From NCBI RefSeq assembly GCF_009707545.1, contig NZ_WLYK01000009.1, positions 62,001 through 126,000 of the forward strand: a stretch of 64,000 bases of DNA, read 5' to 3'. Source of the DNA: Nakamurella alba. Its GTDB lineage: Bacteria; Actinomycetota; Actinomycetes; Mycobacteriales; Nakamurellaceae. Made by a program: the position numbers and the translations under genes. The notes beneath the pieces are model-generated. The model ran no database searches. It had not been told where the DNA came from and saw only the letters and a program-made list of their open reading frames with translations. Shown here in pieces: positions 35,625-46,478 of this stretch. Positions within the stretch are counted from its first letter, which is position 1. Each line of letters starts with the position of its first letter.

Positions 35625-36743
35625 ATGCCCTTCGCCGACGAACTCCTCGGTGCGCCCGCCGCACGGTCGCTGCTGGCCGCTGTCCGGAAGGCCCGGCCGC
35701 GTCGCCGGCTGCAGGCACTCACGGCGGCGGTCACGGGTCTGGACGGATTGACCCTGCGCGCCCGGTGCGACCTGCTGACCGCGGCATTGCTGGACGACAT
35801 CCCCGGTGACGACGAGGATCTGGGTGAGGTGGTACGCCGACTGCTCGCCGATCCGGCGTTCACCGGGTGGGCCACCTGGCCGGTCGGCGAGGCCGTCACC
35901 GCCCGGGCACTGGAACAGTTGACCACCGACGCGATCGACCGGGCGCTCGACCTGCTGCCCGCACTGACCCCGCTGCTCTCCTCCGAGTTCGCGATCCGCC
36001 CGCTGATGATCGCCGACCTGCCGCGGGTGATCGCGGCCGCGGTGCGCTGGACCGCCGATCCCGACCCGGCCGTCCGCCGACTCGCGAGCGAGGGCACCCG
36101 TCCGTACCTGCCATGGGCCCGGCGGGTACCTGCCCTCGACCTCGATCCGGCGGTGACCGTGCCGATCCTCGATGCCCTGTACCGCGATCCGGACGAGGTG
36201 GTGCGCCGGTCCGTCGCCAACCATCTCAACGATCTGTCCCGGCAGCACCCGGAACTGGTGGTGGCCACGGCGGCGGGCTGGGCGGCGGCACCGGATGTAC
36301 ACACACCCCGGGTCGTCCGCCACGCGCTGCGCACCCTGGTCAAACGCGGGCATCCCGATGCACTGGCGCTGCTCGGCTTCGGCGCCGGCGGAACGGTGGT
36401 GGTGACGGGGCCGGTGCTCAGGGCCGGGCACGTGCAGGACGGCGGCGAGATCGCCTTCACCGGATCAATTCTCAATCCCGGCGCGGAGTCCGTGCGGGTC
36501 GCGGTCGACTACGTGCTGCACTTCCGCAAGGCCTCCGGCCGCACCGCGCCGAAGGTCTTCAAGATCACCACCGCGACACTGGCGCCCGGTGAGCAGCTGG
36601 ATCTGGCCCGCACCTTCTCCTTCCGCCCGATCACCACCCGCCGCTACCACCCCGGCGAGCACGCGCTCGAGCTCCAGGTCAACGGTGTCGCTTCCGGTCG
36701 GGTGGCGTTCGTCTACATCGGCCAGGGAACCGGCGCGGTCTGA
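35625..36743 (+). CDS. DNA alkylation repair glycosylase, AlkC-type with C-terminal Ig-like domain
   Basis: Removes cationic alkylpurines from DNA. The 372 residues start with HEAT-like helices (about 1-255; RRSVANHLNDLSRQHPELV and RHALRTLVKRGHPDALALLGF are AlkC/AlkD family signatures) and end with a beta-rich domain (about 256-368, VTGPVLRAGHVQDGGEIAFTG...HALELQVNG) like the Ig-like tail of one AlkC subgroup. The gene stands alone between a catabolic operon and a helicase gene. A TAGGAC hexamer 6 nt before the ATG and no ribosome binding site hint at a leaderless mRNA. Confidence 0.82.
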   Translation: MPFADELLGAPAARSLLAAVRKARPRRRLQALTAAVTGLDGLTLRARCDLLTAALLDDIPGDDEDLGEVVRRLLADPAFTGWATWPVGEAVTARALEQLTTDAIDRALDLLPALTPLLSSEFAIRPLMIADLPRVIAAAVRWTADPDPAVRRLASEGTRPYLPWARRVPALDLDPAVTVPILDALYRDPDEVVRRSVANHLNDLSRQHPELVVATAAGWAAAPDVHTPRVVRHALRTLVKRGHPDALALLGFGAGGTVVVTGPVLRAGHVQDGGEIAFTGSILNPGAESVRVAVDYVLHFRKASGRTAPKVFKITTATLAPGEQLDLARTFSFRPITTRRYHPGEHALELQVNGVASGRVAFVYIGQGTGAV

Positions 36744-36930
36744 TCAGCGGGTGACCGGGCCCACCCTTCCGGGCACGGCGACATCCCAGTATCTGGGCTA
36801 CACTGAATCGATTCCTGGAGTGCGTCGCGCTGCTCTCGTCATCGGATGTTTCGATCTTTCGGGGGATTGCGACTGTTCCGGCACCGACCTGGTGCCGGCG
36901 CCCGCTCCCACCGAACCACGAACGGTTGCA
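36744..36930 (+). promoter_or_regulatory. 187-bp leader of the DEAD-box helicase gene, with hairpin
   Basis: A TACACT hexamer at 36799-36804 is a fair -10 candidate, which would leave a leader of about 120 nt. It contains an 8-bp perfect hairpin, CCGGCACC-gacct-GGTGCCGG, at 36878-36898, about 30 nt before the ATG, and no ribosome binding site next to the start codon. Long structured leaders are common for cold-shock RNA helicases, which can control their own expression. Confidence 0.45.
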
Positions 36931-38763
<1,833 letters not shown>

Positions 38764-38813
38764 CCCGCGCGGCCGGCGACGGCCGCTCGAGAACTGAACA
38801 GCACCACCCCGGA

Positions 38814-38845
38814 GATCGTCCGGATCCACACGGATCCGGACGATC
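38814..38845 (+). terminator. Hairpin terminator after the helicase gene
   Basis: A perfect 14-bp inverted repeat (left arm 38814-38827, loop ACAC, right arm 38832-38845) starting 50 bp after the helicase stop. It is followed by TTCGCGATT, so there is no strong U-tract; many actinobacterial terminators look like this. The rest of the 177-bp gap holds only the ribosome binding site of the next gene. Confidence 0.6.
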
Positions 38846-38940
38846 TTCGCGATTCACCCACCTGGCGCGGGCCCGCTTTGCGATAGTGCTCCTCGATCGG
38901 CAATCGCCGGTCACCCCCGCGAAGTGCCGGAGGGACCGCC

Positions 38941-39564
38941 ATGCCGCAGTTCGTGGCCAACGGCAAGAGGATCGTCGACGTCCACCTGCAGGGCGACTCG
39001 TTCCGCGCCCGGGCCGGATCGATGGTCGCCTACCAGGGCACCGTCGCCTTCAAGCGTGCCCCCATCGGCGGCGGGGAAGGGATCCGCGGTGCGATGAAGC
39101 GCGGCCTGGCCGGTGAAGGGCTGGAGCTGATGGAATGCACCGGGCACGGCGTCGTCCACCTGGCCGTCGACGCCGCCTACGTCGAGATCGTGCAGCTGAC
39201 CGGGGACAAGCTCATGGTCGAGTCGTCCTCGCTACTGGCCTACGACACCCACCTGACCACCGGGATCGCCTTCCACGGCCTGCGCGGTCTGTCCGGCGGG
39301 CAGGGCGTGGCCACCACGACCATCAGCGGAGCGGGCACCATCGCCCTGCTGTCCTTCGGCGGACCGCTGGTGGCGCTGCAGGTCTCGCCGCAGCACCCGC
39401 TCACCGTCGATCCGGACGCCTACGTCGGACACCTCGGCAACCTGCAGCAGACCTTCGTCACGGACATCAGCTGGCGGATGATGATCGGCCAGGGCAGCGG
39501 CGAGGCCTTCTCGCTCCACTTCACCGGTACCGGAGTCGTGTGGATCCAGCCGGAGGAGCGCTGA
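38941..39564 (+). CDS. AIM24 family protein (first of three)
   Basis: A 207-residue beta-rich protein of the AIM24/TIGR00266 family, function unknown; the yeast founder is a mitochondrial inner-membrane protein. SFRARAGSMVAYQGTVAF at the N-terminus, LLAYDTHLTTG in the middle and HFTGTGVVWIQPEE at the end are family features. GGAGGGA stands before the ATG. Stop and next start overlap by one base (TGATG), so the three paralogues are translationally coupled. No signal peptide or membrane segment is seen. Confidence 0.85.
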   Translation: MPQFVANGKRIVDVHLQGDSFRARAGSMVAYQGTVAFKRAPIGGGEGIRGAMKRGLAGEGLELMECTGHGVVHLAVDAAYVEIVQLTGDKLMVESSSLLAYDTHLTTGIAFHGLRGLSGGQGVATTTISGAGTIALLSFGGPLVALQVSPQHPLTVDPDAYVGHLGNLQQTFVTDISWRMMIGQGSGEAFSLHFTGTGVVWIQPEER

Positions 39565-40211
39565 TGTTCGACCCGGTGAACTCCAAGGTGGTCCGCGGCG
39601 AGCTCGGGCCGGGCAAGGATGCCGTCGCCCGCCGCGGCGCGATGATCGCCTACCAGGGCGACGTGCTCTTCTCGCCGATCTTCCTGGGCGGCAACATGTC
39701 CGGCTTCGTCGGCCGACAGGTGAGCGGCGAGGACCAGGCGATGATGAAGGCCTCCGGCCGTGGGTCGATCTGGTACGGCTTCGGCGGCATGGACACCACG
39801 GTGCTGCGGCTCTCCGGCGAGTCGCTGACCACCGAATCGTCGCGGATCCTCTGCCACGAGCCGTCGCTGCACGCGTCGGTCGTCTCCGCCGCGCAGGCCG
39901 GCGGTGGCGGGGGCCTCCGCGGTGCCGCCCGGGGCGTGGTCTCCGGTCAGGGCTTCATGACCACCCAACTCACCGGGCACGGCATGGTGGTACTGCTGAG
40001 TCACGGCGGCACCATCGAGATCCCGGTCCAGGGCGGCGGTGTCACCGTCGACCCACAGGCCTACATCGCGCACCGCGGTCAGCTGCACCTGAAGCTGCAG
40101 GCGAAGGTCGGCTGGCGGGAGGCAGTCGGCCGCGGCAGCGGCGAGGCCATGCAGCTCGAGGTCACCGGTCACGGCAGCGTTCTCGTCCAGGCATCGGAGA
40201 AGAAGTTCTGA
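39564..40211 (+). CDS. AIM24 family protein (second of three)
   Basis: A 215-residue paralogue with AVARRGAMIAYQGDVLFSPIF, ESSRILCHEPSLHAS, GQGFMTTQLTGHGMVVLLS and the C-terminal EVTGHGSVLVQASE. A Gly-rich insertion around 110-125 distinguishes it from its neighbours. Start and stop overlap the flanking AIM24 genes by one base each. Probably part of a mixed complex with the other two products, since all are produced from one mRNA in sequence (inference). Confidence 0.85.
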   Translation: MFDPVNSKVVRGELGPGKDAVARRGAMIAYQGDVLFSPIFLGGNMSGFVGRQVSGEDQAMMKASGRGSIWYGFGGMDTTVLRLSGESLTTESSRILCHEPSLHASVVSAAQAGGGGGLRGAARGVVSGQGFMTTQLTGHGMVVLLSHGGTIEIPVQGGGVTVDPQAYIAHRGQLHLKLQAKVGWREAVGRGSGEAMQLEVTGHGSVLVQASEKKF

Positions 40212-40882
40212 TGGTCGCCACTCCCCTCGATCCGTCGACCCTCCCGTCGAACGACAACATCACGTCGTACTGCTACTGCATCGAGAACTCCGGCGAGTAC
40301 TTCCTGCAGAAGGGCGCGATGCTCGCCTACTACGGGCAGATGCGCTTCGAGAACCTGATGTCGTCCTCGGTCCCCAACATGGTGGCCAGGCAGTTCGGTT
40401 CGCCCACCGGGATGAACGAGTGGGTGCTCGCCCGCGGGCACGGGAAGCTCCTGCTGGGCCGCGGCGGGCTGGAGTTGAACTCGTACACCCTGGAGGACGG
40501 CAACCTGACGGTCCGGGCGAGGAACCTGCTCGGGTTCGACCCGACGTTGGAGCTGAAGCAGTCGATCATCCCGGGCTACCTGAACCTGATCGGGTCCGGC
40601 ACGTTCGTCGCCGGGTCGAACGGCCCGGTGATGTTCGCCGAGCCGCCGATCCGGGTCGACCCGCAGGCGCTGCTGGGCTGGTCGGACACCCCGACGCCGT
40701 GCGTGCACTTCGACACGAACTGGATGACCGGCCTGGTCAGCGGTGCGCAGGCGTTCTTCGGGCGGCGCAGCGGCGAGGAGGAGCAGTACGACTTCACCGG
40801 CTCCGGCACGGTGCTGATCCAGTCGTCGGAGATCGTCTCGTTCGCCGAGGAGATGGCCATCCAGCAGACCCTGCGGCGCTGA
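40211..40882 (+). CDS. AIM24 family protein (third of three)
   Basis: A 223-residue, more divergent paralogue: NSGEYFLQKGAMLAYYGQMRFENL, a central NLLGFDPTLELKQSI and a C-terminal FTGSGTVLIQSSEIVSFAEEM. It has two unusual Cys residues near the N-terminus (SYCYCIEN). One-base overlap with the preceding AIM24 gene. The unit ends here; the next gene starts 55 bp later from its own promoter-like sequence. Confidence 0.85.
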   Translation: MVATPLDPSTLPSNDNITSYCYCIENSGEYFLQKGAMLAYYGQMRFENLMSSSVPNMVARQFGSPTGMNEWVLARGHGKLLLGRGGLELNSYTLEDGNLTVRARNLLGFDPTLELKQSIIPGYLNLIGSGTFVAGSNGPVMFAEPPIRVDPQALLGWSDTPTPCVHFDTNWMTGLVSGAQAFFGRRSGEEEQYDFTGSGTVLIQSSEIVSFAEEMAIQQTLRR

Positions 40883-40937
40883 GGGATCTCCTCCGTTCCG
40901 GCCCGGGACCACCCGTCCGGCGGATACGGTCCGCTGC

Positions 40938-41657
40938 ATGGCACGGACTTCCGGTGGATGGACGCGAGGCGCTGCGGCGATCGGCGCGATGACGGTGATC
41001 GGGCTGCTGGCCGGCTGCACCTCGGGCGGCAGCAGCGCACGGTCGACGGTGACGACCACGGTGGAGCAGACCCGGACGACCGCGGTCACGGTCACCGTCA
41101 CCACCTCTTCGTCGATCCGCACCCCGCCGCCGCCGAGCACCACGCCGACAGTCGGACCGGGCACCGAACTGGGCGCCCAGGACGCCGACATGCAGTACGG
41201 TGCAGCGGTTCTCAACCCACTGCAGCCGTGCGAGGTACTCGACCCGGATGCCGGCGACCTGGTCGACCTGCCGCTGGAGCCGAGCGATTCCACCCCGAAC
41301 AGCTGCGTCGCCTTCGACGACGGCAAGGGTTTCGGCGTGAAGGTGGAGGTCGGCGACATGGCCGATGCGATCGACACGGTCAAGCGGTGCTTCTACGCCG
41401 ACGACGACCAGGACCAGTGCGACCTGCCGGACATCATCGACGACTACGACGCCCGCACCTTCGTCCGCGACGGCGTCACGGTGATCACCGAGGACGTGAT
41501 CAACGGTGACGACGGGTACCTCGGCGCGAACGTGGCCGCGGCGAAGAACGCCTGGGTGCAGATCACCGTGCACTTCGACGGCGGGCTGACCCCGGTGACC
41601 GACAAGATCCGGATGCAGCTGGTCGATCAGGTGATCGCACACTCGAAGGGCGCATGA
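40938..41657 (+). CDS. Secreted lipoprotein of unknown function
   Basis: A 239-residue lipoprotein: hydrophobic signal and lipobox LLAGC with Cys27, a 50-residue Thr/Ser/Pro linker, then an acidic domain (about 80-235) with LNPLQPCEVLDP, VDLPLEPSDSTPNSC and RCFYADDDQDQCDLP. This Cys-containing, acidic domain resembles unnamed actinobacterial DUF3558-like lipoproteins, but I cannot assign it firmly. TACGGT at 40925-40930, 7 nt before the ATG with no ribosome binding site, suggests a leaderless mRNA. Confidence 0.7.
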   Translation: MARTSGGWTRGAAAIGAMTVIGLLAGCTSGGSSARSTVTTTVEQTRTTAVTVTVTTSSSIRTPPPPSTTPTVGPGTELGAQDADMQYGAAVLNPLQPCEVLDPDAGDLVDLPLEPSDSTPNSCVAFDDGKGFGVKVEVGDMADAIDTVKRCFYADDDQDQCDLPDIIDDYDARTFVRDGVTVITEDVINGDDGYLGANVAAAKNAWVQITVHFDGGLTPVTDKIRMQLVDQVIAHSKGA

Positions 41658-41796
41658 GACCGGTGCACGGCCGGGGAGCTTGATGGGAGTCCTCGGGGAA
41701 ACCGGGGTACGGGAACCCGGCGCCGGGTACGGTCCGTTGGCAGAGCGGTGCCGGGTGTCCGGCACCTGAGGTGAGTACGCGTCGGGAAGGACCGTC

Positions 41797-42252
41797 ATGT
41801 CGTTCTGGAACCAGCTGAAGTCCAAGACCCAGGAGATGAACAGCTCCCTCAAGACGAAGGCGGGCCAGTTCAAGAACAAAGAGTTCGCCGCCGGCTCGAT
41901 GGCGATGTGCGCGCTGATCGCCGCCGCCGACGGCTCGATCGACCCGCAGGAGCGGCAGAAGACCGCCGCGCTGATCATGAGCAACGACGTGCTGTCGATC
42001 TTCCCGCCGGCCGAGCTGCAGCAGAAGTTCGACTTCTACTGCAGCAAGCTGGCCAGCGACTACGACTTCGGCAAGGTGGAGGCCATCGCCACCATCGGCA
42101 AGCTGAAGTCGAAGGCCGACCAGGCCCGCGCCGTGATCCAGATCGGCATCATCATCGGAGGCGCCGATGGCAACTTCGACGAGCACGAGCGTCGCGCTGT
42201 CAAGGAGGCCTGCTTCGCGGTGAACATCAACCCCGCGGAGTTCGATCTCTGA
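41797..42252 (+). CDS. TerB-family tellurite-resistance-like protein
   Basis: A 151-residue helical protein. GSMAMCALIAAADGSIDPQERQK and a second acidic helix IIIGGADGNFDEHERRAVKEACF are the two metal-binding-type repeats of TerB. GGAAGGA precedes the ATG. TerB proteins act with TerC and TerD in stress and membrane complexes; no TerC or TerD gene is nearby, but three AIM24 genes and a lipoprotein gene lie upstream on the same strand. A 139-bp gap before it holds no other gene. Confidence 0.85.
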   Translation: MSFWNQLKSKTQEMNSSLKTKAGQFKNKEFAAGSMAMCALIAAADGSIDPQERQKTAALIMSNDVLSIFPPAELQQKFDFYCSKLASDYDFGKVEAIATIGKLKSKADQARAVIQIGIIIGGADGNFDEHERRAVKEACFAVNINPAEFDL

Positions 42253-42268
42253 GGGTTCAGATGTCAGA

Positions 42269-42299
42269 GGGGTGCGGTGTCCTGTCGACACCGCACCCC
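42269..42299. terminator. Hairpin terminator between convergent TerB and radical SAM genes
   Basis: A perfect 13-bp stem (left arm 42269-42281, right arm 42287-42299) with a five-base loop CTGTC, 16 bp after the TerB gene stop and 30 bp before the stop of the convergent gene. Its symmetry lets it serve both strands; only a short TT follows on the plus strand. Confidence 0.7.
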
Positions 42300-42329
42300 T
42301 TCGTCGTTCCACCGAGCAGCATCGGACGG

Positions 42330-43421
42330 TCAGAACAGCGCCTGCTGCTCGGCCGGGGCCCGGTGATCCGGGGACCCGGAGGGTGTGGTGCCGGGCATCG
42401 CACCCTCCGGGAAGGACTCCCCCTCCGCGCCCGGCACGCCGCGTAGCGCGTCGTCGCCGGACCTGGTGATGCCCACCCGGCGGCGGGCGCGCCGGACCCG
42501 TTCGGCCAGCTCGGCCCGGTAGCCGGCGTCCGCGTTTGCACCGCGCCGGTAGAGCCCCTCGTAGGCCGGCACCAGCTCCGGGTGCTGCTCGGCGAGCCAG
42601 CGCAGGAACCACTCCCGCGCCCCGGGACGCAGGTGCAGCGCGAACCCGGTGACGCCGGTCGCGCCGGCCTCCTTGAGATCGGCCATCACCTCGGTGATCT
42701 GCTGCTCGGAATCCGTCAGGTACGGCAGCAGCGGCGCGACCAGCACCCCGCACGGCAGCCCGGCATCGGTGATCCGGCGGACCAACTGCAGCCGGGCCGT
42801 CGGCGACGGCGTCCCCGGCTCGAGCAGCTGCTGCAGCTCCTTGTCGACCAACGCCAGTGACACCCCGATCCCCACCGGCACTCTCGTGGCGGCTTCGGCC
42901 AGCAGCGGTAGGTCGCGGCTGAGCACGGTGCCCTTGGTGAGGATCGAGAACGGCGTCCGGTGGGCGACCAGCGTCTCGATGATCCCGGGCATGAGCGCAT
43001 AGCGTCCCTCCGCCCGCTGGTACGGATCGGTGTTGGTGCCCATCGCGACCTGCTCCCGCCGCCAGGACGGAGCCGCCAGCTGCTTGCCCAGCACCTGCGC
43101 GATGTTCGTCTTGACGACGATCTCGGTGTCGAAGTCGTGTCCGGCATCGAACTCCAGGTAGGTGTGCGTGTTCCGGGCGAAGCAGTAGACGCAGGCGTGG
43201 GTGCAGCCGCGGTACGGGTTCACCGTCCAGGAGAACGGCATCGGACCGCGGATCCGGTTCAGCACGCTGCGGGCCACCACCTCGTGGAAGGTGACGCCGG
43301 CGAACTCCGGCGTCCGCACCGAGCGGACCAACCCGCCGAGCCGGCCCAGGCCGGGCAACGCCGACGGATCCTCACCGAGCAGACTCTGCCGTTCCCACCG
43401 CACCCGGACATTCGAACACAT
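42330..43421 (-). CDS. Radical SAM protein, Rv2578c family
   Basis: A 363-residue radical SAM enzyme, the actinobacterial SplB-like Rv2578c family of unknown substrate. GCTHACVYCFAR has the CxxxCxxC motif for the 4Fe-4S cluster; EQVAMGTNTDPYQRAEGRYALM and SILTKGTVLSRDLPLL follow as in spore photoproduct lyase relatives. The last 70 residues are polar and probably disordered. Start uncertain: family members often begin at the MRW-like VRWERQ, which here would be GTG at 43403; the ATG at 43421 is also without a clear ribosome binding site. Confidence 0.85.
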   Translation of the reverse strand: MCSNVRVRWERQSLLGEDPSALPGLGRLGGLVRSVRTPEFAGVTFHEVVARSVLNRIRGPMPFSWTVNPYRGCTHACVYCFARNTHTYLEFDAGHDFDTEIVVKTNIAQVLGKQLAAPSWRREQVAMGTNTDPYQRAEGRYALMPGIIETLVAHRTPFSILTKGTVLSRDLPLLAEAATRVPVGIGVSLALVDKELQQLLEPGTPSPTARLQLVRRITDAGLPCGVLVAPLLPYLTDSEQQITEVMADLKEAGATGVTGFALHLRPGAREWFLRWLAEQHPELVPAYEGLYRRGANADAGYRAELAERVRRARRRVGITRSGDDALRGVPGAEGESFPEGAMPGTTPSGSPDHRAPAEQQALF

Positions 43422-43448
43422 GTCCAGGCGCGGTGTCGAGCGGTGCGG

Positions 43449-44240
43449 TCAGCAGGTGACCTGGACCTGGAAGTAGTAGTCGACCTGGTTGCCGTTGTAG
43501 TTGGTCATCTGGATGTAGATGTACTTGTCGTCGACGTAGGCGGACACGTTGTACGCGTAGTAGTACGAGCTGACGATCGGGGTGCAACCGTTGAGCGACC
43601 GGTTGGCCTGGACGACGTAGTAGCCGGTCGAGCCGTGCGAGTAGGGCGAGAGTGTGCCGTTGCCGTTGAACAGGTTGCCGGCCGTGGTGAAGGTCCCGTA
43701 GATCTGCGGGGCGTAGTAGCCGGTGACGTCGACCGTCACGTCGGTGGTGCCCGCATAGTTCTTGATCGCCAGGTTCTTCCCGGCGGCGGGGTTCACCGCG
43801 AGCGTGACGCCGCTGCCGTTCGACGTCCCGGAGTACTGGACCAGGCTCGCGCCCGGTTCGGACTGGCCGGTGGGCCAGGCCCGGAGCCAGCCGGTGCCGG
43901 CCGGGTCCACCGCGGTGATCACCGCGGCGATCGCAGTGGTGCCGACCGGGATCCCGCAGCCGCCCGACTTCCCGCCCTGCGGCGCGAAACCCGTAGTGCC
44001 GCTGGCGTAGTAGGTCCGGGAGACCTGCGATCCGAACGGGGTGCCACCCCCGATCCGGGTGTCGACGATCCGGCACGGGGCGATCGGGGTGAGCACCGCC
44101 CCCTGCTGCGTCGCGGTGGCCAGCGTGGCTGCCGGCGGTGGAGGCGGTGGCGCGTCGTCGGCGGAGGCGCCGGTCCCCGCCACCCACGCCCCGGCCAGCA
44201 GGGCCAGCGCGGCAACACCGATCACGGACAGACGGTTCAT
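43449..44240 (-). CDS. Secreted beta-rich protein of unknown function
   Basis: A 263-residue exported protein: signal peptide (MNRLSVIGVAALALLAGAWV, cleavage likely after GTGASA), a short poly-Pro stretch, then one domain with TPIAPCRIVDTR, CGIPVGTTAIAAVITAVDP and VTVDVTGYYAP, a pattern that recurs in actinobacterial and other secreted adhesin-like proteins. The C-terminal 80 residues are rich in Tyr, Asn, Ser and Thr, as in surface or carbohydrate-binding modules, and end in Cys. AGGAGT precedes the ATG. I do not know a function; cell-surface or matrix binding is a guess. Confidence 0.75.
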   Translation of the reverse strand: MNRLSVIGVAALALLAGAWVAGTGASADDAPPPPPPAATLATATQQGAVLTPIAPCRIVDTRIGGGTPFGSQVSRTYYASGTTGFAPQGGKSGGCGIPVGTTAIAAVITAVDPAGTGWLRAWPTGQSEPGASLVQYSGTSNGSGVTLAVNPAAGKNLAIKNYAGTTDVTVDVTGYYAPQIYGTFTTAGNLFNGNGTLSPYSHGSTGYYVVQANRSLNGCTPIVSSYYYAYNVSAYVDDKYIYIQMTNYNGNQVDYYFQVQVTC

Positions 44241-44355
44241 GGTGACTCCTGGTGGCAGGAGAGGGATCTCACGTCCCTCGGGGCACCTGGGAGCATGGCA
44301 CCGGCGACCAGCGCGGTCGAGCCGCCGAAAGAGGTCCGGCACACCCCGTTCGGGT

Positions 44356-45582
44356 TCAGCCGGCGTGCGCCCGGGCCAGCCGGGCCACCGCCTCGTCCAG
44401 CCGGTCCTCCGGCACCGAGGCGAAGCAGAAGCGGGCGCTGTCGCGGTTGCCGCCGGTGGTGGAGAAGGCCGGGCCGGGCACGAACGCCACTCCCTCGGCG
44501 AGCGCCCGCTGCAGCAGCGGCGTGGTGTCGGTGCCGTCGGTGAACCGGGCCCAGGCGAACATGCCGCCGGCCGGGGAGTTGACCTCGACCGCGTCACCGA
44601 AGGTCTGTTGCAGGGCCGTCACGAGGTGCCCGGCGCGGCCCGCGTACAGCCGGCGCACGCCGGCGACATGCACGGCCAGTCGGTCGGTCTCGGCAGCGGC
44701 CCGGTGCAGCATCAACTGCGCCAGCGTGGAGGTGTGCAGGTCGGTCGCCTGCTTGGCCTTCGCGGCCGCGGCCAGCACCTCGACCGGCCCGGTCATCCAA
44801 CCGACCCGCAGTCCGGGTGCCAGAATCTTGGAGAAGGTGCCGAGCCGGACCACCCGGTCGGTGTACGCCGCGATCGGCGCCGGCGCCGACCCGTCGAAGG
44901 AGAGCTCGCGGTAGGCGTCGTCCTCGACCACCAGGAACCCGAACTCGTCGGCCAGCGCCGCCACGTGCCGGCGTCGGTCGTCGGCGAGCGTGCTGCCGGC
45001 CGGGTTGTGGAAGGTCGGCGTCAGATAGACGAACTTGGGGCGCAGACCGGCACGCAGCGCCTGCTCGAGCAGATCGGTGCGCATGCCGGCGGCGTCCTGC
45101 GGGATCGCCGCCAGCCGGACGTCGGCCAGCGCGAAGGACTGCAGCGCGCCGACGTACGCGGGGTCCTCCACCACCACGTCGTCACCCGGGTCGAGCAGCA
45201 CCTTGCCGAGCAGGTCCAGTGCCTGCTGCGAACCGGTGTTGACGATCACCTCGTCCGGACCGACATATCGTCCCCGCCATGCGGTCTCCCACTGCGCGAT
45301 GACCGCTCGCAGACCCTGGTGACCCTCGGTGGTCGAGTACTGCAGGGCGCCGGGGGCGGTCATCACCTCGGCGGCGGTGTCCGCCAGCCAGCGGGCCGGC
45401 ATGGCCGACTCGTCGGGGAGACCACCTGCCAGCGAGAGGATCTCGGGGCGGGAGGTGACAGCGAGCAGGTCCCGGATGGCCGAGGACTGCAGGTCGGAGA
45501 TCCGGCGGCTGAGAAGGTCGCCCACTCCACGAGCGGGTAGCGCTGCCACGGTGAGCGCAGTAGCGCTATCCGTTGCTGTCAT
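44356..45582 (-). CDS. PLP-dependent aminotransferase, class I/II (2-aminoadipate/valine type)
   Basis: A 408-residue aminotransferase. SLAGGLPDESAMPARWLADTA at the start, NTGSQQALDLLGKVLLDPGD, TPTFHNPAGSTL, VVEDDAYRELSFDG (the D and Y that hold PLP) and the Schiff-base Lys in GTFSKILAPGLRVGW mark the LysN/MocR-like group that acts on 2-aminoadipate, valine or kynurenine. It is divergent from an acyltransferase gene. TATCGT at 45588-45593, 5 nt before the ATG with no ribosome binding site, suggests leaderless translation; the same GCTATCGTC precedes the MocR gene. Confidence 0.87.
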   Translation of the reverse strand: MTATDSATALTVAALPARGVGDLLSRRISDLQSSAIRDLLAVTSRPEILSLAGGLPDESAMPARWLADTAAEVMTAPGALQYSTTEGHQGLRAVIAQWETAWRGRYVGPDEVIVNTGSQQALDLLGKVLLDPGDDVVVEDPAYVGALQSFALADVRLAAIPQDAAGMRTDLLEQALRAGLRPKFVYLTPTFHNPAGSTLADDRRRHVAALADEFGFLVVEDDAYRELSFDGSAPAPIAAYTDRVVRLGTFSKILAPGLRVGWMTGPVEVLAAAAKAKQATDLHTSTLAQLMLHRAAAETDRLAVHVAGVRRLYAGRAGHLVTALQQTFGDAVEVNSPAGGMFAWARFTDGTDTTPLLQRALAEGVAFVPGPAFSTTGGNRDSARFCFASVPEDRLDEAVARLARAHAG

Positions 45583-45641
45583 GTTCGACGATAGCACTTC
45601 GGTCGGGTCCGACTCGACCGGATTTCGGTGTTGGATGAGGT

Positions 45642-46478
45642 GTGAGCCTGCGATCGACCGTGACCTCTGCCCGATCACGAGTGACCGGCGCGGCGGCCCG
45701 GGTGCTGACCCGGGACGACCGCCTCTACCGCGGCGTCGTGGCGTTCGTCCGGTTCCTCTTCCGGCTGCTGCGCCTCCGCTTCGACATGCGGGACGCGGAC
45801 CGCATCCCGGCCTCCGGCGGGGCGGTGCTGTGCTGCAACCACATCGGGTTCATGGACTTCACCTTCGTCGGCCTGGCCGCCACCCGGCACCGCCGACTGG
45901 TCCGGTTCATGTGCCGGCAGGGCGTGTTCACCAACAAGCTCACCGGCCCGCTGATGCGCGGCATGCGGCACATCCCGGTCGACCGCACGAACGGCACCGC
46001 AGCCGCGCGTACCGCACTGGACCTCCTGGCCCGGGGCGAACTGGTCGGCATCTTCCCGGAGGGGACCATCTCCCGGTCCTGGACGCTGAAGCCGTTCCGG
46101 CAGGGGGCCGCGGTGCTCGCCGTCGCCCGGCAGGTCCCGCTGGTCCCGATCATCATCTGGGGCGGCCACCGCATGATCACCGTCGACGGGCACCGCAGCC
46201 TGCGCCCGCGCCTGCCGGTGAGCATCCGGGTCGGCGAACCCATCGAGCCGACGGAGCAATGGGCACAGGTCCGCGGCCGGGCCCGCACCGCGCTGGTGGT
46301 CGAGGTGGAGGCGGAGCTCCGGGCCCGCATGCAGGAGCTGCTGGACCGCACCCAGCGGGAGTACCCGGAACGGCCCCGGAACGAGAAGGACCGGTGGTGG
46401 CAGCCGCGACACCTGGGCGGTTCGGCGCCGACACCGGAGGAGGCTGCGGTGATCGACGCGGAGCGCATGCTGGACTGA
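45642..46478 (+). CDS. 1-acyl-sn-glycerol-3-phosphate acyltransferase (PlsC family)
   Basis: Transfers an acyl chain to lysophosphatidate or a related lipid at the membrane. The 278 residues have NHIGFMDF with His67-x4-Asp72, the catalytic pair, then VFTNKLTGPLMRGMRHIPVDR and FPEGTIS at about 138-144, the substrate-binding block. The C-terminal 40 residues are basic and polar. GTG start with GAGG just upstream. It stands between the aminotransferase and MocR genes but is functionally unrelated in appearance. Confidence 0.87.
   Translation: MSLRSTVTSARSRVTGAAARVLTRDDRLYRGVVAFVRFLFRLLRLRFDMRDADRIPASGGAVLCCNHIGFMDFTFVGLAATRHRRLVRFMCRQGVFTNKLTGPLMRGMRHIPVDRTNGTAAARTALDLLARGELVGIFPEGTISRSWTLKPFRQGAAVLAVARQVPLVPIIIWGGHRMITVDGHRSLRPRLPVSIRVGEPIEPTEQWAQVRGRARTALVVEVEAELRARMQELLDRTQREYPERPRNEKDRWWQPRHLGGSAPTPEEAAVIDAERMLD

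Follow-up and report, generated by a model that had tools for sequence, protein, structure and literature searches.

The AIM24 monomer consists of three TRAP-like beta-sandwich repeats, for which a homotrimer has been put forward as a model (PMC6677890), and the solved members of the Pfam family (PF01987), SPyM3_0169 (1PG6) and PA3696 (1YOX), are encoded by single genes. In yeast, Aim24 occurs in a complex of ~400 kDa and is required for the integrity of MICOS (PMC3975624), and the fungal protein EOP-1 interacts with itself (PMC13075794). Yeast mitochondrial Aim24 and plant PAWH1/2 are membrane-associated scaffolds for which oligomerisation has been proposed (PMC3975624, PMC6677890). Among the bacterial AIM24 proteins, there is none whose physiological function is known, according to PMC6677890. 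The placement of AIM24 genes beside terD was already described by Anantharaman, Iyer and Aravind in 2012, as that work is reported in PMC5822837.

The locus described here lies in a window of 64,000 nucleotides from Nakamurella alba (contig NZ_WLYK01000009.1, positions 62,001 to 126,000) and differs from the solved AIM24 proteins in that it encodes three diverged paralogues, aim1, aim2 and aim3 (the trio), that are always encoded together. The trio proteins have the AIM24 domain in common with yeast Aim24 and PAWH1/2, whereas the latter are eukaryotic, membrane-anchored and engaged with other partners (MICOS and Hrd1). Genes typical of the Ter islands that have AIM24 neighbours (StiP, PRTase_2, C-C lyase, HAD, TerD, TerC/DUF475 and TelA) are found near some trio loci, whereas the trio of the present genome sits outside any such island. 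No description of an obligate three-paralogue AIM24 set nested in TerD genomes was found in the searchable literature. The trio proteins are ordinary members of AIM24; what appears to be new, as far as that literature goes, is a three-subunit set that is strictly kept and restricted to genomes with TerD.

Organization of the AIM24 locus

The initial annotation described three AIM24 genes joined by TGATG overlaps and followed by a lipoprotein gene and a TerB gene. Both junctions and all open-reading frame coordinates were found to be exact, and the described arrangement is confirmed (Table 1). The sequence GGAGGG is present upstream of aim1 (38929-38934), and Shine-Dalgarno-like sequences are found shortly 5′ of the aim2 start (GGAGGAG, 39552-39558) and of the aim3 start (GGAGAAGAAG, 40196-40205). 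The lipoprotein gene starts 55 nt past aim3 and the TerB gene 139 nt past the lipoprotein gene, so that coupling is limited to the three AIM24 genes and the two genes that follow share only their strand.

Table 1 Features of the N. alba AIM24 locus, in window positions
Feature	Coordinates	Strand	Description
Hairpin	38810..38849	+	18-nt arms, 94% complementary, 4-nt loop; gap between DEAD-box helicase gene and aim1
aim1	38941..39564	+	AIM24 paralogue 1, 207 aa; Pfam AIM24 121.5 bits
TGATG	39562..39566	+	aim1 stop/aim2 start; one-base overlap (A of TGA is A of ATG)
aim2	39564..40211	+	AIM24 paralogue 2, 215 aa; Pfam AIM24 106.1 bits
TGATG	40209..40213	+	aim2 stop/aim3 start; one-base overlap (A of TGA is A of ATG)
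aim3	40211..40882	+	AIM24 paralogue 3, 223 aa; Pfam AIM24 46.3 bits
Lipoprotein gene	40938..41657	+	MARTSGGWTRGAAAIGAMTVIGLLAG/C..., lipobox LLAG/C; outside the trio unit
TerB-family gene	41797..42252	+	151 aa; PF05099 77.7 bits; outside the trio unit

The hairpin upstream of aim1 has no T-tract and probably marks the end of the DEAD-box helicase transcript; its position between the helicase gene and aim1 suggests that the trio is a transcription unit of its own. A scan for sigma-70 promoters and T-tract terminators gave no matches. Downstream, a perfect 14-nt inverted repeat at 42268-42300, also without a T-tract, separates the convergent TerB and radical-SAM genes and is probably a two-way terminator. 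In the 38 trio loci of a single genus, g45 (for example, L099 and L109), a conserved TAxxxT-like element lies ~7 nt 5′ of the GTG start of aim1, which hints at leaderless transcripts in that genus.

Family membership and predicted fold

All three proteins score above the gathering cut-off of Pfam AIM24 (25.7 bits), with aim3, by this score, the most divergent member of the trio. Against TIGR00266 the three chains are weak matches, all far under the family cut-off of 96.6 bits (aim1, 48.3; aim2, 32.4; aim3, 14). Structure models of aim1 and aim3, built from alignments of only six sequences each, matched 1pg6 and 1yox with scores far exceeding those of every other chain (Z of 18.5/18.4 for aim1 at a mean pLDDT of 77, and of 15.6/17.3 for aim3 at a mean pLDDT of 75), and on these models aim1 and aim3 are assigned the AIM24 fold. 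TRAP itself (1WAP) was not among the structure matches of the models, and inspection of the AIM24 chains by eye revealed no membrane anchor. Among its own orthologues, aim3 is the best conserved of the three, with 78 positions at least 98% conserved; these include W157, D159, T160, P161, P163, H166 and D168, within an invariant stretch of the form GWxDTPxPxxHxD.

The present genome also has a fourth AIM24 gene apart from the trio (G000:C8:145514-146134, L001; 195.9 bits), which is nearer to the Pfam consensus than the trio genes are. At least three similar tandem copies of a secreted-looking protein encoded at 43449-44597 (-) of the window are found on another contig (L059:14437-17986), where they sit near this fourth gene.

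The trio is kept as one unit

Orthologues were sought in an even set of 395 genomes of the class. Those of aim3 were present in 56 genomes, always as a single copy, and the same 56 genomes contained aim1 (E ≤ 6.4e-53, the next matches, at 6.8e-42, being aim2 genes) and aim2 (E ≤ 1.7e-38, next matches at 1.1e-32); none of the 395 had a partial set of one or two. A contig search for related loci returned Embleya hyalina (L005) as the sole relative, and its addition gave 57 loci, in all of which gene order and strand are identical. With distances taken from the start codon closest to the stop, the junctions were 30 nt or less in 57/57 loci for aim1/aim2 and in 55/57 for aim2/aim3, and they overlapped in 25 and 40 loci, respectively. 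This invariant order, together with tight or overlapping junctions over 57 orthologous loci, indicates that the coupling is not a matter of chance. Pairwise divergences of the three proteins correlate at r = 0.966-0.973, a figure that includes their shared species history. In a tree, aim2 forms a single well-supported group, aim3 forms one group save for two copies from a genome of a different class (G549) that fall inside it, and aim1 makes up the remainder of the trio part. We regard it as nearly certain that the three genes evolve as a single unit, and their all-or-none co-occurrence, order, coupling and co-divergence lend strong support to the initial expectation that the three AIM24 proteins are always produced together.

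Carriers of the trio are spread over eight families of the class, 38 of the 56 belonging to g45, and the trio is absent from all 16 other genomes of the genus of N. alba. This patchy distribution, with every sister genome lacking the trio, suggests either acquisition by horizontal transfer or loss on several occasions. The GC content (67-70%) and GC3 (0.92-0.98) of the trio resemble those of the flanking genes; foreign base composition was therefore rejected as a sign of recent transfer, and composition is of no help in deciding between gain and loss.

A set held together in this way need not be a complex, since tandem order and coupling can occur without physical contact between the chains. 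The genes could be duplicated AIM24 copies kept together by co-regulation alone, each forming its own homo-oligomer with its own role, as would fit the self-association possible for AIM24 proteins (PMC13075794), the commonness of single-gene AIM24 and the tandem array of G549, in which four AIM24 genes, one aim1-like, one aim2-like and two aim3-like, are found (L152:7407-9919). We consider three separate homo-oligomers unlikely, because the 56/56/56 co-occurrence, the invariant order and the coupling fit an obligate assembly better, and assembly of the three chains with one another is the reading that we hold to be probable. The duplicated aim3 of G549 does indicate that a strict 1:1:1 ring would not be universal.

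The lipoprotein and TerB genes are not conserved neighbours

The TerB protein scores well above the gathering cut-off of Pfam TerB (PF05099, 24.4 bits), whereas the lipoprotein has no Pfam family; NCBIfam gave no convincing match to either protein. The lipoprotein likewise has no relatives in same-genus genomes or at the other trio loci, so the conserved neighbourhood whose lack the initial annotation had named as a refutation was not found for this gene, nor was it found for TerB. For TerB the picture is that of an older gene of the genus: it is present in 11 of the 16 other same-genus genomes, at 58-87% identity, and it adjoins the trio in 1/56 trio genomes, the present one. In two sisters (L045 and L046), the order is helicase, dehydrogenase, TerB and radical-SAM, with both AIM24 and the lipoprotein gene missing; compared with these, the trio and lipoprotein gene stand in the place of the dehydrogenase. 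The placement of TerB beside the trio is, thus, particular to the present genome. Antisense TerB and TerD matches arose artificially when the profile was iterated over open-reading frames from all six frames, and they were disregarded.

Two other sisters have TerB in different surroundings. In L051:4987-17489 and L047:4049-14377, unlike in the present genome, it lies within a Ter island that holds TerD copies, TerC/DUF475 and either TelA or a StiP/PRTase_2/C-C lyase module. Its placement among TerD and TerC/DUF475 genes there indicates that TerB is a true Ter-network gene.

These observations bear on the partnership proposed in the initial annotation, in which the trio, the lipoprotein and TerB would form one membrane-linked complex from a five-gene operon. 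The shared strand and the small intergenic distances (55 and 139 nt) are consistent with such an operon, as are the occurrence of both TerB and AIM24 in Ter-type gene networks and the presence of some TerB in 45/56 trio genomes. Against it, 11 of the 56 have no TerB match, the same-genus genomes with this TerB are all without the trio, the two sisters that keep the surrounding gene order do so without AIM24 or the lipoprotein, and the lipoprotein is without a same-genus relative. The five-gene operon is consequently very improbable and largely refuted already. Neither TerB nor the lipoprotein is kept beside the trio across the 56 trio genomes, and both were rejected as conserved partners; they are bystanders, chance neighbours of the trio.

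The trio is confined to genomes with TerD

TerD (E ≤ 1e-20) was detected in 103/395 genomes, including 56/56 trio genomes compared with 47/339 others, a difference with a Fisher value of 9e-40 that overstates independence because 38 of the 56 trio genomes come from g45. The nesting persists at the genus level, where all 13 trio genera fall within the 22 TerD genera among 138 (p = 8e-13). TerD is found in 38/105 AIM24 genomes that have no trio. The association is one-way, since 47 genomes have TerD without the trio, as do sister genomes of the same genus, indicating that TerD does not require it. The present genome has 12 TerD matches, with none located within 26001-56000 of the window, and genes for TerC and the Ter biosynthetic module are absent within 36001-46000.

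Ter genes lie within ~10 kb of the trio in 9/57 loci from four families (f7, f43, f41 and f48), in the form of TerD, TerC/DUF475, TelA or the StiP/PRTase_2/C-C lyase module, and five loci have the whole module (C-C bond lyase, PRTase_2/TRSP, StiP/PELOTA and HAD). Control stretches had Ter genes in 0/20 cases, a difference from the trio loci that is not significant alone (p = 0.10). At one locus (L108), terD is downstream of aim3 on the same strand, while at three others (L055, L106 and L107), it is divergent to the trio.

Nesting of this kind could reflect the shared lifestyle of large-genome soil actinomycetes, with the three chains forming a hetero-assembly that has no role in the Ter system. 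The 38 g45 trio loci, none of which has Ter genes within ~10 kb, are consistent with this, as is the phylogenetic clustering that inflates the Fisher value. Genome size alone is not the cause, however, since the small trio genomes G227 (3.0 Mb) and G342 (3.2 Mb) have 7 TerD matches, whereas g131 genomes of 8.8-9.3 Mb have neither trio nor TerD. The Ter islands that adjoin the trio in four families also argue against a Ter-unrelated role, as does a separate AIM24 triplet, non-orthologous to aim1-aim3, that likewise lies beside TerD and TerC/DUF475 (G019, L056:8177-10245). We therefore judge the Ter-unrelated role improbable and lean slightly toward an assembly of the trio that serves the TerD stress system. 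The AIM24-Ter stress complex suggested in the initial annotation, thus, receives support through TerD and the Ter gene islands and none through the local TerB.

A proposed mixed AIM24 ring

Taken as a whole, the observations seem best explained by a three-subunit, TRAP-like ring acting at the membrane together with the TerD stress system, a reading to which we assign a probability of roughly one in two. Each trio gene would encode a specialised subunit of three TRAP-like beta-sandwich repeats, and translational coupling would supply the subunits in matched amounts. Most likely, aim1, aim2 and aim3 would close into a mixed ring of nine repeats at a ratio of 1:1:1, taking the place of the homotrimer suggested for AIM24 proteins that are encoded by single genes. 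That the trio is a unit is shown by the sequences. We infer one mixed ring because the three paralogues never occur apart and trimers have been proposed for proteins of this family; the stoichiometry, the membrane site and the stress role of this hetero-ring are likewise what we infer. The ring would most likely be a cytosolic scaffold at the membrane with the TerD/TerC stress system as its partner, and it may steady membrane protein or lipid assemblies in a way comparable to yeast Aim24 and MICOS, although the action as a membrane scaffold is the part of the proposal that we offer only tentatively.

A more detailed version, about which we are equally cautious, would have the mixed AIM24 ring as an obligate assembly encoded by a three-gene cassette that moved between actinobacterial families and needs a resident TerD, with the GWxDTPxPxxHxD stretch of aim3 possibly forming a partner- or metal-binding face that is missing from aim1 and aim2.

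The restriction of an unsplit trio to TerD genomes makes the function of bacterial AIM24 proteins concretely testable. If the proposal is true, the trio would show, in bacteria, how a family of homo-rings gave rise to a hetero-ring with specialised subunits, and it would offer a simple model of how Aim24 steadies mitochondrial membrane complexes.
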